NCBI GenBank assembly: GCA_017415805.1
Contig: JAFQEC010000032.1
Coordinates: forward strand, 1 to 64,000
Source of the DNA: Clostridia bacterium
Lineage (GTDB): Bacteria > Bacillota > Clostridia > Oscillospirales > CAG-272
Length of the DNA stretch: 64,000 bases
Direction: 5' to 3'
Below, in pieces: positions 10,237 to 43,767 of this stretch. Within the stretch, counting starts at the first letter, position 1. Every line of letters begins with the position of its first letter. The notes below the pieces were generated by a model. That model searched no databases, was not told the DNA's origin, and saw only the letters and a program-made list of their open reading frames with translations. The translations under genes and the position numbers were made by a program.

Positions 10237-11658
10237 ATGTCTGCAAATCCGAATTCTTTCGCAACGCCACACGCGCTTGACGAATGTCGCGCAGTCGTGC
10301 GCGCGCACACGGCGGCGTTTGCGGCACAGCACGGTCGAAGCCCGCGCTGCTTCGTGCTGACCTTCGGCTGTCAGCAAAACGTCGCGGACAGCGAAAAGCT
10401 CTCGGGCATGGCCGAGGAGCTGGGGTACGAGATCTGCTCCGCACCCGAGCAGGCTGAGCTGATTCTTGTGAACACCTGCGCCATTCGCGAGCATGCCGAG
10501 ATCAAGGCACTCTCGATCGTGGGGCAGTATAAGCACCTCAGGGAGAAAAATCCCGCGCTGCTCATCGGCGTTTGCGGCTGTATGGTGGTGCAGGAGCATC
10601 GCCGCGCGCAATTGCAGCGCAGCTACCCGTACGTGAGCTTTGTGCTGGGTACTGCGGCACTGCATCTGCTGCCCGAGCGCCTTGCCGAGTGCATCGTGCG
10701 CGAGCGCCGTATCTTCCGCGCCGATGAGAGCTATGCGATCGCCGAGGGCGTGCCGATCCGCCGCGAGAGCACCTACCGCGCCTTTGTCAGCATCATGTAC
10801 GGCTGCAACAACTTCTGCTCCTACTGCATCGTTCCTTACGTGCGCGGCCGCGAGCGCTCGCGTGCGCCTGAGGCAGTGATTGCAGAGGTTCGTCAATTGG
10901 TGGCTGAGGGCTACCGCGACATCACGCTGCTGGGGCAGAACGTCAATTCCTACGGCAAGGATCTCGGCACGGGCTACACCTTTGCCGACCTGCTCGCCGA
11001 GCTGGACAGCATAGAGGGGGATTACATCCTGCGCTTTATGACCAGCCACCCCAAGGATGCCACGCGGCGGCTCGTCGACGTGATGGCATCGGGCACGCAC
11101 ATCGCCCACCAGTTCCACCTGCCGCTGCAATCGGGCAGCGATGCGATCCTGAAAGCGATGAACCGCCATTACGACCGCGCCAAATATCTCGATATTCTCG
11201 ACTATATGCGTGAGCGCATGCCCGATATTGCCGTGACCTCGGATATCATCGTGGGCTTCCCCGGGGAGACCGACGCCGATTTTGAGGACACGCTTTTGAT
11301 GCTCTCGCGTGCACGCTTTGACAGTATCTTCTCGTTCATTTACTCGCCGCGAAAGGGAACGCCCGCGGCCGAGATGAAGGAGCAGATCCCGCGCGCCGTG
11401 CAGAACGCACGCTTTGACCGATTGCTCGCGCTTCAAAATGAGATCTCACTCGCGCAAAATCTGCCCTTGGTGGGCACGACCGTGCGCGTGCTTTGCGACG
11501 GCGAGAGCAAGACCGACGCGGGTATGCTGCAGGGCAGGACCGCACAAAATAAGATCGTCTTTTTTGCAGGGGATATCCCCGCAGGAGAATGGGTCGACGT
11601 GCAGATCGACCGCGCCGAGGCCTTTGCGCTTTACGGCACAATCCGAAATGAAGAATAA
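10237..11658 (+). CDS. miaB: tRNA-2-methylthio-N6-dimethylallyladenosine synthase MiaB
   Basis: Radical SAM methylthiotransferase that converts i6A37 to ms2i6A37 in tRNAs. The frame is open further upstream, but that would place the start before the promoter, so the ATG at 10237 with AAAGGAGA is chosen, giving 473 residues. The UPF0004 domain carries cysteines 45, 81 and 115 for the auxiliary cluster; the radical SAM motif CNNFCSYC has cysteines 190, 194 and 197; a C-terminal TRAM domain begins near 410. First gene of a run of seven closely spaced genes; the next encodes a YlbF/RicA-type protein, the same order as in Bacillus. Confidence 0.96.
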   Translation: MSANPNSFATPHALDECRAVVRAHTAAFAAQHGRSPRCFVLTFGCQQNVADSEKLSGMAEELGYEICSAPEQAELILVNTCAIREHAEIKALSIVGQYKHLREKNPALLIGVCGCMVVQEHRRAQLQRSYPYVSFVLGTAALHLLPERLAECIVRERRIFRADESYAIAEGVPIRRESTYRAFVSIMYGCNNFCSYCIVPYVRGRERSRAPEAVIAEVRQLVAEGYRDITLLGQNVNSYGKDLGTGYTFADLLAELDSIEGDYILRFMTSHPKDATRRLVDVMASGTHIAHQFHLPLQSGSDAILKAMNRHYDRAKYLDILDYMRERMPDIAVTSDIIVGFPGETDADFEDTLLMLSRARFDSIFSFIYSPRKGTPAAEMKEQIPRAVQNARFDRLLALQNEISLAQNLPLVGTTVRVLCDGESKTDAGMLQGRTAQNKIVFFAGDIPAGEWVDVQIDRAEAFALYGTIRNEE

Positions 11659-11678
11659 ACCGACGAAAGGATACAGTT

Positions 11679-12065
11679 ATGGGAATTTTTGAACTGGCGG
11701 CCGAGCTCGGCCGCACGCTGAAGGAAGACAAGAGACTTGTGGCATTGGAGGAGGCACGCGTCGCATACGAGAACGACGAGCGCGTAGGTCGCTTGATGAC
11801 CGAATACGAGGTCCAGCAAAAGGCCATTCAGAACGAGGCGATGAAGGCAGAGCGCAACGACGAGCTGATCCGCATGATCCAGGATCGCATCGACGCGCTG
11901 TACACCGAGATCACCGAGACCGAGACCTACCGCGCGCTGGAGAAGGCACAAAACGAGGTCAATGAGCTGATGGAAATGGTCAATACCACCATCACCTTCC
12001 AGATCACGGGCAAGACGTCCGCGGGCTGCACCCACGATTGCTCGACCTGCGGCGGCTGCCACTGA
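11679..12065 (+). CDS. YlbF/YmcA (RicF/RicA-like) family protein with Cys-rich tail
   Basis: Small helical protein of 128 residues, almost entirely charged alpha-helix, typical of the YlbF/YmcA family. In Bacillus subtilis RicA, RicF and RicT form an iron-sulfur-containing complex that aids RNA processing by RNase Y and affects competence, biofilm and sporulation. Here the C-terminus ends CTHDCSTCGGCH with Cys117, Cys121, Cys124, Cys127 and His128, a plausible metal or Fe-S ligand set. Its place between miaB and mutS matches ymcA (ricA) in Bacillus, although cotE, found there before mutS, is missing. Whether it is RicA or RicF in function cannot be told from the sequence. Confidence 0.85.
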   Translation: MGIFELAAELGRTLKEDKRLVALEEARVAYENDERVGRLMTEYEVQQKAIQNEAMKAERNDELIRMIQDRIDALYTEITETETYRALEKAQNEVNELMEMVNTTITFQITGKTSAGCTHDCSTCGGCH

Positions 12066-12107
12066 TTTCAATATCCGACCAAACCAAAAGAAAAGGAGCA
12101 CTGTGCC

Positions 12108-14699
12108 ATGACACCGATGATGGAGCAGTATTTCGAGATCAAAAACAAATACAAGGACTATCTCGTGTTCTATCGCCTGGGCGATTTTTATGAGATGTTT
12201 TTTGACGACGCGAGGCTCGCCTCGCGCGAGCTGGAGCTCACCCTCACGGGGCGCGACTGCGGCGAGCCCGAGCGCGCGCCGATGTGCGGCGTGCCGTTTC
12301 ACAGTGCAGAGAGCTACATCGCGCGCTTGATCGAAAAGGGATATAAGGTCGCGATCTGTGAGCAGATGGAGGATCCGTCCAAGGCCAAGGGGCTTGTCAA
12401 GCGCGACATCGTGCGCGTGGTCACGCCCGGCACGCTGCTCGAGCCCGGGATGCTCACCGAAAAGAAGAATAACTATGTCTGCGCCATCTGTATCGAGCAG
12501 GGGGCGTTCGGCGTTTGCTTTGCCGACGTTTCCACGGCGCAGATCCACGCCACCACACTCGCGGGAGACAACCGCATGGCACGGCTGCAAAGCGAGCTCG
12601 GCACCTTCGAGCCGCGCGAGGTCGTGGTGGATCTGCCGCATACCGACTTTGCGGAGCTTGCGGATTTCATCACCAACCGTGTGGGTGCGATGATCTCGGC
12701 AGGGGAGGCGGCACGCTTTGATTACACGGCCGCGTGCGCGCGTCTGCGTGCGCAGTTTGGCGATACGCTCCCGCAAGGCTGGGAGGAGCAACGGGCGATG
12801 GTCTGCTCGGTGGGTGCGCTGCTGGATTACATCGGTGAAATGCAGCGCAGTGACGTGGGCTACATCAAGGAGCTCACGGTCTACTCCGACGGCCAGTACA
12901 TGGATATGGACATCAATACGCGCCGCAATCTCGAGCTGACCGAGACCATGCGCAGCAAGGAGAAGCGCGGCACGCTGCTCTGGGTGCTCGATCGCACCCG
13001 CACCGCCCCCGGCGCGCGCCTCTTGCGCTCGTGGGTGGAGCATCCGCTGCTCTCCGATAAGGCCATCGTCACGCGCCAGGGTGCCGTGGAGGAGCTGTTT
13101 GGCAATTATATGCTGCGCGGGGAGCTGGGCGACACGCTCTCGGGCGTGCTGGATCTCGAGCGCCTCATCACACGCATCGTCTACGGCACGGCCAATGCCA
13201 AGGACCTGCGCGCCGTTGCCGCTACCGTTGCCGTGCTCCCCGAGGTGCGCCGACTGCTTGCCGACTGCCGCGACGGGGAATTGCGCCGCATTTTTGAGGA
13301 TCTGGACGACCTTCGCGATATTCACGCCCTGATCGACGCCGCCATTGACGAGGATCCGCCCTTCGTTTTGCGCGAGGGGGGACTGATCCGCAAGGGCTAC
13401 AATACTGATGTCGACTATCTGCGCTCGGTCATGCAGGACGGCAAATCGTGGATCGAGCGCGTGGCCGCCGAGGAGCGCGAGGCAACGGGCATCCGCACGC
13501 TCAAGATCGGCTATAACAAGGTGTTTGGCTATTACATTGAGGTGTCGAAGTCCTTTGTGGATCAGGTGCCCGAGCGCTATATTCGCAAGCAAACCCTCAC
13601 AAACGGCGAGCGTTACATCACCGAGGAGCTTAAGGATATGGAGGCCACCATTCTCGGTGCGGCCGACAAGGTCTGCTCGCTCGAATACGAAATTTTCCAG
13701 GAGATCCGCGCCAAGGTCGCCGCCGAGGGCGAGCGCATTCAGCGCGTGGCCAACCGTCTGGCGGAGCTGGACGTGTATCTCTCGCTGGCCGACGTGGCGG
13801 CCAAGAACAAGTATGTGCGCCCCGAGGTCGATATGAGCGACACCGTGGTGATTCGCGACGGCCGCCATCCCGTTGTGGAGCAGTTCGTAAAGGACACGTA
13901 TTTTGTGCCCAACGACGCGCTGCTTGACACCGACAAGAATCGCGTGATGCTCATCACCGGTCCGAACATGGCGGGTAAATCCACTTATATGCGTCAGGTC
14001 GCGCTGATCGTGCTGATGGCGCAGATCGGCTCGTTCGTGCCTGCCGCCGAGGCGCGCATCGGCATCGTGGACAAGCTGTTTACGCGCGTGGGCGCGTCGG
14101 ACGATCTCGCGTCGGGGCAGTCCACCTTCATGCTGGAGATGAACGAGGTCGCCTACATTCTGCGCAACGCGACGCGCCGCAGTCTGATCATCTATGACGA
14201 GGTCGGGCGCGGCACGAGTACCTTTGACGGCATGAGCATTGCGCGTGCTATCGTGGAATACACGCACAGCCGCAGGATCGGCGCAAAAACGCTGTTTGCC
14301 ACGCATTATCACGAGCTCACCTCGCTCGAGGAGGAGCTGGACGGGGTGGTGAACTACAACATTGCCGCCAAGAAGCGCGGGGACAGTATCACGTTCCTGC
14401 GCAAGATCATTCGCGGCTCCACCGACGACAGCTACGGCATTGAGGTCGCGAAGCTCGCAGGACTGCCGAACGAGGTCATTCGCCGTGCGCGCGAGGTGCT
14501 TGCCTCGGTTGAGGCCACGGCCAAGGCCGTGCAGACCGCGCCGACAGAGAACACAAAGCAACAGGATGACACGCTCATTACAATGGACGACTGTGTGAAC
14601 GCGCAGGTCATTGACGCCCTGCGCGGTATGGACATCAACACCCTCTCGCCCTATGAGGCCATGAGCTTTTTGTTCGATTTGAAGAAACGCCTGAATTAA
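12108..14699 (+). CDS. mutS: DNA mismatch repair protein MutS
   Basis: Recognises base mismatches and small loops and starts repair with MutL. The 863 residues cover all five domains. The mismatch-binding wedge motif FYEMFFDDA is near residues 29-37, the Walker A motif GPNMAGKS is at 618-625, and the DEVGRGTSTFDG segment and FATHYHELTSL switch follow. The C-terminal helix-turn-helix dimerisation region ends in ALRGMDINTLSPYEAM. AAAAGGAG precedes the ATG. The 10-base gap to mutL and shared orientation indicate co-transcription. Confidence 0.98.
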   Translation: MTPMMEQYFEIKNKYKDYLVFYRLGDFYEMFFDDARLASRELELTLTGRDCGEPERAPMCGVPFHSAESYIARLIEKGYKVAICEQMEDPSKAKGLVKRDIVRVVTPGTLLEPGMLTEKKNNYVCAICIEQGAFGVCFADVSTAQIHATTLAGDNRMARLQSELGTFEPREVVVDLPHTDFAELADFITNRVGAMISAGEAARFDYTAACARLRAQFGDTLPQGWEEQRAMVCSVGALLDYIGEMQRSDVGYIKELTVYSDGQYMDMDINTRRNLELTETMRSKEKRGTLLWVLDRTRTAPGARLLRSWVEHPLLSDKAIVTRQGAVEELFGNYMLRGELGDTLSGVLDLERLITRIVYGTANAKDLRAVAATVAVLPEVRRLLADCRDGELRRIFEDLDDLRDIHALIDAAIDEDPPFVLREGGLIRKGYNTDVDYLRSVMQDGKSWIERVAAEEREATGIRTLKIGYNKVFGYYIEVSKSFVDQVPERYIRKQTLTNGERYITEELKDMEATILGAADKVCSLEYEIFQEIRAKVAAEGERIQRVANRLAELDVYLSLADVAAKNKYVRPEVDMSDTVVIRDGRHPVVEQFVKDTYFVPNDALLDTDKNRVMLITGPNMAGKSTYMRQVALIVLMAQIGSFVPAAEARIGIVDKLFTRVGASDDLASGQSTFMLEMNEVAYILRNATRRSLIIYDEVGRGTSTFDGMSIARAIVEYTHSRRIGAKTLFATHYHELTSLEEELDGVVNYNIAAKKRGDSITFLRKIIRGSTDDSYGIEVAKLAGLPNEVIRRAREVLASVEATAKAVQTAPTENTKQQDDTLITMDDCVNAQVIDALRGMDINTLSPYEAMSFLFDLKKRLN

Positions 14700-41312: not shown

Positions 41313-41340
41313 AAAAAGCGGCGCTGTTGCGCCGCTTTTT
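41313..41340 (+). terminator. Rho-independent terminator after glyS
   Basis: 12-bp stem AAAAAGCGGCGC / GCGCCGCTTTTT with a TGTT loop. It separates glyS from the kinase/PqqD/peptidase cassette. Confidence 0.93.
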
Positions 41341-41350
41341 GCTTTTTCTA

Positions 41351-41379
41351 TTGCATTTTTGCTTCCTTTATGATAAAAT
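41351..41379 (+). promoter_or_regulatory. Sigma-A promoter of the HprK/PqqD/peptidase cassette
   Basis: TTGCAT at 41351-41356, 17 bases, TAAAAT at 41374-41379. The predicted start of transcription near 41386 rules out starts further upstream in the kinase frame. Confidence 0.85.
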
Positions 41380-41410
41380 AAGTGCATATGAGAAAAAAGG
41401 GGGGATCGGC

Positions 41411-42121
41411 TTGAAGATCCGTATTGCAGAGCTGAATATCGAGATCCAAAACCGATACCCGTATACCGCACGGCAATGTGTGGGCTATGAGGCGGAGTTT
41501 GACCGCGCGGACATTACGGTCTGCGTGCCGATCGAGGACGTCAAGCGCGAGTTTGAGCGCTCTGTCGAGGGGTGCTCACCCGGTTACGCCGAGTTCATCT
41601 GCATTTACCGCGCCATCGCACGCGAGCTGCCGCGCTTCGGTGCGTTCGTGTTTCACGCATCGGTGGTGGAGTGTGACGGCAGGGCATACGCCTTTACCGC
41701 CACCAGCGGCACGGGCAAATCCACCCACACCGCACTCTGGTTGCAGGAATTCGGCGCGCGCGCGCGCATCATCAACGGCGACAAGCCCATCTTTCGCTTT
41801 TTTGGGGATACGCTCTACGCCTGCGGCACGCCCTGGTGCGGCAAGGAGCGACAGGGCTGTAACGCCGTATCACCCTTGGCGGCACTCTGCTTTCTGGAGC
41901 GCGATACCGTCAACCGCATCGCACCCATTGACGATGCCGAGGCGGTGAAGCATCTGTTCCATCAGATCTTTATCCCCGAGAGCATCGAGGCAGCAGGTCT
42001 GCTGTTTGACCTGCTCGACCGAACCGTACGCAATATCCCGACCTATTTGTTGGGGTGCAATATCTCGCCCGAGGCCGCACACGTGGCCTACCGCGGCATG
42101 CAGAGAGGAGAAAACGAATGA
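41411..42121 (+). CDS. HPr kinase-like P-loop protein
   Basis: Protein of 236 residues related to the C-terminal half of HPr(Ser) kinase. It has the P-loop FTATSGTGKSTHT at about 95-107, the acidic segment INGDKPIFRF at 121-130, and GTPWCGKERQGCN. HprK-like kinases of this size occur in some RiPP clusters; in paeninodin-type lasso clusters one phosphorylates the peptide. The start is a TTG at 41411 preceded by AAAGGGGGG; the only longer frame would begin in the glyS terminator. First gene of a three-gene unit, overlapping the next by four bases (ATGA). The substrate is unknown; true HPr as a target is unlikely because the regulatory N-terminal domain is absent. Confidence 0.8.
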   Translation: MKIRIAELNIEIQNRYPYTARQCVGYEAEFDRADITVCVPIEDVKREFERSVEGCSPGYAEFICIYRAIARELPRFGAFVFHASVVECDGRAYAFTATSGTGKSTHTALWLQEFGARARIINGDKPIFRFFGDTLYACGTPWCGKERQGCNAVSPLAALCFLERDTVNRIAPIDDAEAVKHLFHQIFIPESIEAAGLLFDLLDRTVRNIPTYLLGCNISPEAAHVAYRGMQRGENE

Positions 42122-42384
42122 TCCGCAGTAATTTATTTATCAAGCGCAAGATCGGCACGCAATTCGTCATCGTTGCGATCGGCGAGGCCACCAAGCGCTT
42201 CAACGGCATGATCACCGTCAACGAAACGGGCAGCTTCATCTGGGATCAACTGGAGAAGGATATCACGCTGGACGAGCTGGTCAACGCTGTGACCGCAGAG
42301 TACGAGGTGGATGCCGACACCGCCCGTGCCGATGCAGGTCGTTTTATCGAGACCCTGAAGGAGGTCGGCGCGCTTGCACAGTGA
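42118..42384 (+). CDS. PqqD-like (RRE) peptide-binding protein
   Basis: Small protein of 88 residues with the PqqD pattern: IGTQFVIVAIGEATKRFNGMITVNETGSFIWDQL, then DITLDELVNAVTAEYEVDADTARADAGRFIETLKEVGAL. PqqD-type domains bind leader peptides of ribosomally made, modified peptides and present them to modifying enzymes. The start is the ATG overlapping the kinase stop, with AGAGGAG upstream. It overlaps the next gene by eleven bases. No precursor peptide or radical SAM gene is visible nearby, so the partner may lie elsewhere in the genome or be a larger protein. Confidence 0.85.
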   Translation: MIRSNLFIKRKIGTQFVIVAIGEATKRFNGMITVNETGSFIWDQLEKDITLDELVNAVTAEYEVDADTARADAGRFIETLKEVGALAQ

Positions 42385-42838
42385 AGTGAACCGCGACTTC
42401 TCGCTGGAGGAGCTGCTGCCGCTAATCACCGAGGTGACCGAGGCAGGCGGGGAATTCCGCTTGCATCCCCGCGGCACGAGCATGCGCCCGATGCTGCGCG
42501 AGGGCAAGGATTCGGTGGTGCTTGTGCGCCCCGACACACCGCGTAAGCGAGAGATCTATCTCTATCGGCGCGCAAGCGGCCAATTCGTCCTACATCGTCT
42601 TTTGCGCGTGGAAAAGAACGGCACGCTCACCTTCTGCGGTGACAATCAGCTTTATTTGGAGCGCGGCATCGCGGCGGACGCCCTGATCGCACGCGTTTCG
42701 GCCTATTACCGCGGCAAAAAGCGTATTTCCATGGCATCCGTGCGCCAGCGCCTGTATGCCGCCCTGTATTGCTTCTGGCCCTACCGTTGGCTGCGTTATC
42801 TCCCGCGCCGCATGATACAAAAAATATTTCATAAGTAA
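42374..42838 (+). CDS. S24/S26-like serine peptidase without N-terminal membrane anchor
   Basis: Protein of 154 residues resembling the S24/S26 (LexA/signal peptidase) fold. It has a catalytic-type GTSMRPML with Ser36, LHRLLR with His74 in the position used by Ser/His (SipW-like) signal peptidases instead of lysine, and FCGDNQ at 87-92. There is no N-terminal hydrophobic anchor; the C-terminus (RLYAALYCFWPYRWLRYLP) is aromatic and basic and could sit on the membrane. The TTG start at 42374 follows GGAGGT and is favoured; a GTG four codons later is possible. Third and last gene of the cassette, ended by a terminator. A role in cutting a leader peptide is inferred from context. Confidence 0.75.
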   Translation: MHSEVNRDFSLEELLPLITEVTEAGGEFRLHPRGTSMRPMLREGKDSVVLVRPDTPRKREIYLYRRASGQFVLHRLLRVEKNGTLTFCGDNQLYLERGIAADALIARVSAYYRGKKRISMASVRQRLYAALYCFWPYRWLRYLPRRMIQKIFHK

Positions 42839-42841
42839 AAA

Positions 42842-42866
42842 ACACCGACAGCGTCGGTGTTTTTTT
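42842..42866 (+). terminator. Terminator after the HprK/PqqD/peptidase cassette
   Basis: 8-bp stem ACACCGAC / GTCGGTGT, AGC loop, then seven T. Confidence 0.9.
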
Positions 42867-42875
42867 GAAATAGAT

Positions 42876-43298: not shown

Positions 43299-43312
43299 AC
43301 AGAGAATTGGTA

Positions 43313-43767
43313 ATGATCATCACATTTTGCGGACACGCTCAATTTCACGGAACAAATGAGCAAGAGCAAAAAATTCTTGATTTCTTAAAAGAAACGGTAG
43401 GAGATCAAGGGGCAGAAATCTATTTGGGCGGATATGGAGATTTTGACCGCTTTGCATACGATTGCTGTAAAAGGTATCAGAAGATGCATCCAAATGTTTC
43501 TCTTGTTTTTGTTGCGCCGTATCTAACAGCGGAATATCAACGTAATCATTTACAATATCAAAAGAAAAGATATGACGCGATACTCTATCCCGAAATTGAA
43601 AAAAGGCCACAAAGCTTGCGATTATCTACCGAAACAGATATATGGTAGAAAAAGCAAGCTATGTTGTGGCATATGTATCGCATGATTGGGGCGGAGCTTA
43701 TGCGATGTATAAGTACGCAAAAACAAAAAGGAAGGAAATCTTCAATCTTGCAGATTGGGATAAATAA
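43313..43767 (+). pseudogene. SLOG-superfamily (DUF1273/YpsA-like) gene with one-base frameshift
   Basis: The first frame (43313-43648) starts MIITFCGHAQFHGTNEQEQK and has GGYGDFDRFAYDCC, the nucleotide/ligand-binding loop of the SLOG (DprA/LOG-like) superfamily. It ends with the out-of-family tail RPQSLRLSTETDIW. Another frame continues the protein with RNRYMVEKASYVVAYVSHDW and GGAYAMYKYAKTKRKEIFNL, also typical of the family. Adding one A to the six-A run at 43599-43604 joins them into 151 residues. So the gene is either broken, affected by a sequencing error, or expressed by slippage. SLOG proteins sense nucleotide-type ligands; some act in anti-phage systems. Neighbour XRE gene and AT-rich sequence suggest a small acquired module. 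Confidence 0.8.

Follow-up and report, generated by a model that had tools for sequence, protein, structure and literature searches.

A kinase–RRE–peptidase cassette resembling the LppK-LppB-LppS core of linear polyphosphorylated peptide systems in a Clostridia bacterium, with candidate precursors encoded elsewhere in the genome

The closest described counterpart of the locus presented here is the biosynthetic system behind a RiPP family from Bacilli, the linear polyphosphorylated peptides (LPPs), reported by Popov et al. in 2026 (PMC13381572). According to the main text of that study, the lppAKBSDN cluster of Paenibacillus alginolyticus encodes the precursor LppA, the HprK-like kinase LppK, which puts several phosphates on Ser3, the RRE LppB, which grips a YxxP motif via N33 and D70, the SpI-like peptidase LppS, which cuts after FET with the aid of LppB, the MsbA-like exporter LppD, and the NTP transferase LppN. 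The published clusters contain the precursor. The main text is silent on Clostridia, radical SAM enzymes, and precursors encoded in trans, and its supplement may list some of the genomes analysed here (PMC13381572).

The window analysed here is a whole stretch of 64,000 nucleotides from a Clostridia bacterium of the CAG-272 lineage. Three genes form an overlapping chain on the same strand, in agreement with a preliminary description made from the sequence alone: the kinase ORF, which starts with TTG and is preceded by AAGGGGGGAT, shares four bases (ATGA) with the PqqD ORF, and the peptidase ORF, also with a TTG start, overlaps the PqqD ORF by 11 bases (Table 1). The same description had assigned the chain one promoter and one terminator; the terminator was recovered, and the promoter was absent from the consensus-scan output and is plausible by eye only. 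No small conserved ORF was found in the flanks of the trio in the window, and neither an exporter gene nor an asparagine-synthetase-like cyclase adjoins it there. A proposed connection with TldD/TldE was abandoned, as these genes lie about 20 kb off among unrelated housekeeping genes and no recurrence was seen near the trio. Elsewhere in the window, the ORFs at 43307-43648 and 43642-43767 overlap in different frames and may be one frameshifted gene.

Table 1. Features of the three-gene locus and its borders (positions are those of the window)
Feature	Position	Strand	Evidence
LppK-like kinase, HprK fold, 236 aa	41411..42121	+	ORF, motifs, AlphaFold2 model and Foldseek
LppB-like discrete RRE (PqqD domain), 88 aa	42118..42384	+	PF05402, profile matches
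LppS-like SpI/SEC11-type peptidase, 154 aa	42374..42838	+	Motifs, profile matches
Possible sigma-70 promoter, TTGCAT-17-TAAAAT	41351..41386	+	By eye, weak
Intrinsic terminator of the trio	42837..42868	+	Hairpin -15.9 kcal/mol, z -5.2; U-run in sequence
Terminator of the upstream gene glyQS	41313..41340	+	Separates glyQS from the trio

The kinase carries the P-loop ATSGTGKSTH and the motifs NGDKP and PWxGK, and alignment showed GxGK[ST]TH, NxDKP, and PxxGK to be invariant among relatives. No Pfam model, PF07475 included, matched the kinase of the window, and its matches to HprK-related NCBIfam models (ScmC, HprK_rel_A) were all sub-threshold. The AlphaFold2 model (pLDDT 72, pTM 0.75) matched HprK best in Foldseek (E 5e-6, probability 1.00), which, together with the invariant P-loop, confirms the earlier assignment to P-loop kinases related to HPr kinase. 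Likewise, the second protein proved to be the PqqD/RRE domain it had been taken for, matching PF05402 at 4.6e-19 and the profiles of the lasso B1 protein TbiB1 (5.7e-11) and of LppB (9x8z; 4.8e-7). Its N35 and D72 align with the leader-binding N33 and D70 of LppB, and N35 is conserved in at least 90% of relatives. For the RRE, AlphaFold2 run with no alignment as input gave a model of low quality (pLDDT 56), which was set aside. The third protein gave a weak Pfam match below the cut-off (PF00717, 5e-4) and profile matches to SEC11A (4.4e-5), SEC11C, and signal peptidase I. Its residues S36, H74, and GD89-90 belong to the boxes GxSMxP, HR, and GD, which are invariant in relatives, Ser36 and His74 included; the protein is a Ser/His peptidase-like enzyme without an N-terminal anchor, as first described. 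E96 aligns with the second Asp of the SEC11A stretch AVDDRG, the catalytic residue there, and is Glu, not Asp. The peptidase shares the Ser and His boxes and GDN with the SEC11A/SipW signal peptidases and differs from them in having no membrane anchor and in being encoded with an RRE.

Compared with the LPP cluster, the trio corresponds to LppK-LppB-LppS in the same order, with an HprK-like kinase, a discrete RRE bearing the YxxP-binding Asn and Asp, and an SpI/SipW-like peptidase. Further likenesses are the YxxP leader followed by Ser in the precursors described below, the links to polysaccharide loci, the apparent lack of a cyclase, and the NTP transferase and ABC exporter present in relatives of the trio. 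In contrast to the published clusters, the precursors are mostly unlinked to the trio, occur several per genome, and often lie behind secreted-protein genes; the peptides are shorter (about 31-54 aa) and have another consensus beyond the Pro, the NTP transferase and exporter are outside the locus, Glu replaces the third catalytic Asp of the peptidase, and a radical SAM enzyme is added in some relatives. HprK_rel_A/PqqD_rel_X (HPr-rel-A) and the SynChlorMet proteins ScmC/ScmD also pair an HprK-like kinase with a PqqD protein, but these names come without an SpI peptidase, and their curated cut-offs were far from reached (18.8 bits against 200 and 26.4 bits against 125); no trio protein matched TIGR04352 or TIGR04353 over the cut-off. 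We consider it likely that these three genes form the LppK-LppB-LppS core of a RiPP system of the LPP type that acts in trans. The trio matches this core, and the machinery is therefore already known; the earlier suggestion that the substrate might not be a classical RiPP is superseded by the LPP pathway now described (PMC13381572). The absence of an in-cluster precursor is treated as a variant trait and no bar to LPP membership.

The kinase was found in 90 of the 146 family genomes. Among about 60 family kinase loci read with their flanks, the ordered trio was the most frequent form, accounting for more than half and bearing out the conservation on which the first reading depended, followed by kinase plus PqqD and then by kinase alone, in some cases at contig ends. 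A relatives search with the kinase alone returned one relative, a kinase without RRE or peptidase. The trio is also common across the class, where the peptidase profile matched 137 of 391 genomes at E <= 1e-6, the weakest matches probably being other signal peptidases. In several relative loci, PF14907 (NTP_transf_5) lies directly 3' of the peptidase, and it occurs within 3 kb of the kinase at 18 of 116 kinase loci; 75 of the 146 genomes contain both PF14907 and the kinase, and those with a single one of the two genes number 15 and 16 (Fisher 4.5e-11). The genome of the window holds two NTP_transf_5 genes unlinked to the trio, one of them within a polysaccharide locus. Genomes further removed add an ABC exporter and polysaccharide genes to the trio and, in some cases, a radical SAM protein. 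Fusions were read between peptidase and ABC exporter (L160:7838-10195, L161:5906-8191) and between peptidase and NTP_transf_5 (L162:1143-2690, L166:6605-8155), the one in L161 by Pfam and those in L160, L162, and L166 by reading the sequence. In three congeneric species, NTP_transf_5 is also part of a long fused ORF (L097:9196-11811, L099, L100); in L097, which lies within a glycan locus, Pfam places an O-antigen ligase domain N-terminal to it.

Several relative loci showed additional features. In L156, L163, L170, L171, and L172, trio homologues come with YxxP peptides that contain Cys and with a radical SAM protein, which may represent a modified LPP-like branch. A family of membrane proteins of 220-235 aa (one of 222 aa) with no clear Pfam match lies 5' of the kinase in seven loci, for example at L038:9079-9735, L040:7940-8638, L041:4251-4916, and L089:2159-2866. 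At L167:4058-7039, the peptidase and a secreted glycoside-hydrolase-like protein share one reading frame, either as a fusion or as an assembly effect.

When small ORFs flanking the trio in relatives were scanned for a motif taken from distant loci, YxxP-leader peptides were found just 5' of the kinase, and an iterated profile then yielded a peptide family. Comparing all small ORFs with one another, with a minimum of three loci, recovered SCIFF and missed these peptides because they diverge. The 69 unique peptides share the consensus Y-x-x-P-E-I-E-I-I-x-[FL]-x-x-E-D-[IV]-I-T-T-S, behind which comes an acidic tail (22% D/E, 3% K/R). Ser occupies position 20 in 78% of them, and the family is covered by no Pfam or NCBIfam model. 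The FET spacing is unlike that of the Bacilli LPPs, and aligning on FET or on Ser leads to different putative cuts. In some relatives, such as L155, L149, and L164, the precursor lies inside the cluster, so that a recurring trio accompanied by a conserved gene for a small peptide, named in the preliminary description as the observation to look for, is present among relatives. Profile matches of the peptides to human RIG-I (E 0.01) were judged to be due to chance.

Two candidate precursors were identified in the genome of the window, replacing the earlier picture of a cassette without a precursor; both are unlinked to the trio, as expected from the suggestion that the substrate is encoded elsewhere. 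The first (C36:57233-57349, 38 residues, MKKTYETPWFNILNFSPIDDIMSTSPEGSDPWEGDEGW) reached E 0.007 with its own peptide left out of the profile and was the sole match in this genome up to E 10. Its gene stands alone between serA-like and prfB-like genes and has a promoter-like sequence, a Shine-Dalgarno sequence, and a hairpin plus U-run terminator. The peptide has a YETPWF leader and then STS, conforming to YxxPx[V/I/L/F] plus Ser, encoded in trans; it departs from the consensus by S-P for E-T before the acidic stretch and by one extra residue before the Ser. The second candidate (C20:8681-8830, MKKRYELLNVSLEGLEPIDILAASQGGGGGGGYQNPGNGDNDDYENDIF) was found at E 0.14 with a wider profile and has no leader Pro (YELL). 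It starts 5 bases past the stop of a gene whose 2201-residue product carries a signal peptide, a position that fits the pattern of the family and played no part in the search.

Across the family, the peptide (E <= 0.01) was found in 64 of 90 kinase-positive and in 1 of 56 kinase-negative genomes (Fisher 1e-18, not tree-corrected), and the lone kinase-negative match is doubtful, sitting inside a 276-residue frame. Within the genus of the window's organism (21 genomes), at E <= 1, all 14 kinase-positive genomes and one of seven kinase-negative genomes had a match (p 1e-4, not tree-corrected; p 0.003 with strong matches only). This within-genus contrast speaks against shared ancestry as the sole cause of the co-occurrence. 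On its own, the kinase may work with other partners, since the peptide was missing at E <= 0.01 from 26 of the 90 kinase-positive genomes, and RRE and peptidase are absent from many kinase loci. With respect to location, 83 of 106 family peptides (E <= 1e-3) were on kinase-free contigs, a count inflated by draft assemblies although many such contigs are tens of kilobases long, and 18 were within 5 kb of a kinase; up to seven peptides occurred per genome.

A same-strand gene no more than 130 nt upstream was found for 51 of the 69 unique peptides. Where the upstream gene was complete, 20 of 28 encoded proteins of 300 residues or more whose N-terminus was signal-like by a crude signal test, versus 206 of 1434 nearby genes (p 3e-11). 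The upstream proteins include endonuclease I, a metallophosphatase, and adhesive pectate-lyase-like domains. In one genome, five unlinked precursor loci (L226, L227, L228, L230, L103) share the identical core ITLSAPDELAKDDDTAVAPDSWFN, and the proteins upstream of them are secreted and different or diverged. The large secreted proteins encoded upstream of precursors in L214, L193, L159, L224, L083, L220, and L144 have roughly their last 100 residues in common, a possible sorting or anchoring domain.

These associations could also arise if the trio modified a protein, for instance HPr or a surface protein, and the peptides co-occurred with it for ecological reasons. The HprK fold of the kinase and the many peptides adjoining secreted-protein genes are compatible with such a role, but a separate canonical HprK is encoded elsewhere in the same genome (3.4e-72), the peptides bear the leader motif bound by this type of RRE, in which N35 and D72 are kept, their presence follows the kinase within one genus, and the substrate of the published homologue is a peptide (PMC13381572); we regard a protein substrate as improbable. 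A lasso-peptide pathway, with the cyclase and B2 protease located elsewhere in the genome, is more clearly unlikely. The RRE is indeed nearest to lasso B1 proteins, and paeninodin-type lasso peptides are likewise accompanied by a kinase and an NTP transferase (PMC13381572), sharing with the trio an RRE, an HprK-like kinase, and a [Y/W]xxP leader. However, no B2-type cysteine protease (PF13471) was detected in the window's own genome, none exceeded the cut-off in the 146 family genomes, and the Ser/His peptidase stands in for B2; moreover, the leader has Tyr and not Trp, and the RRE carries Asn where paeninodin RREs carry Gly (PMC13381572).

It is similarly hard to see the trio as an accessory to a SCIFF system on another contig, which we hold to be very improbable: the only other PqqD match of the genome is a radical SAM protein of the SCIFF type, preceded by a gene for a Cys-rich peptide, yet SCIFF maturases bear their own RRE, SCIFF has no YxxP leader, and no co-location with the trio was observed.

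Under the LPP-type reading, the trio most likely binds, phosphorylates, and cuts one peptide class, as proposed earlier and as the conserved trio and its homology to the LPP enzymes (PMC13381572) suggest. The RRE would grip the Y-x-x-P leader of short precursors encoded elsewhere, for which the C36 and C20 peptides are candidates; the HprK-fold kinase would then phosphorylate a Ser just past the leader, the one conserved in D-[IV]-I-T-x-S, and the RRE would recruit the soluble Ser/His peptidase to cut off the leader, presumably leaving a linear acidic phosphopeptide. Judging from relatives, modification by an unlinked NTP_transf_5, ABC export, and a role at the cell surface may follow.

As far as the accessible literature shows, the split, trans-acting, multi-precursor LPP arrangement tied to secreted proteins is new. 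It would represent a common LPP form in another part of Bacillota, whose short precursors, scattered in several copies over a genome and unlinked to the trio, are missed by mining that relies on clusters. More tentatively, one cassette might serve dispersed precursors, mostly co-transcribed with large secreted proteins, and the phosphopeptides might be joined to surface glycans, so that LPPs would be a means of surface coating or protein-to-glycan tethering and not a diffusible product; joining to glycans is proposed because the NTP transferase is fused to an O-antigen ligase in sister species. The sites behind secreted-protein genes and this fusion offer a clue to function, and testable substrates are named here.

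The SCIFF-type RiPP locus of the same genome (C11, L096) consists of a 48-aa Cys-rich peptide at 10530-10676, directly upstream of a 458-aa protein at 10741-12117 with an N-terminal PqqD-like region, and the pair is also found in sister species.
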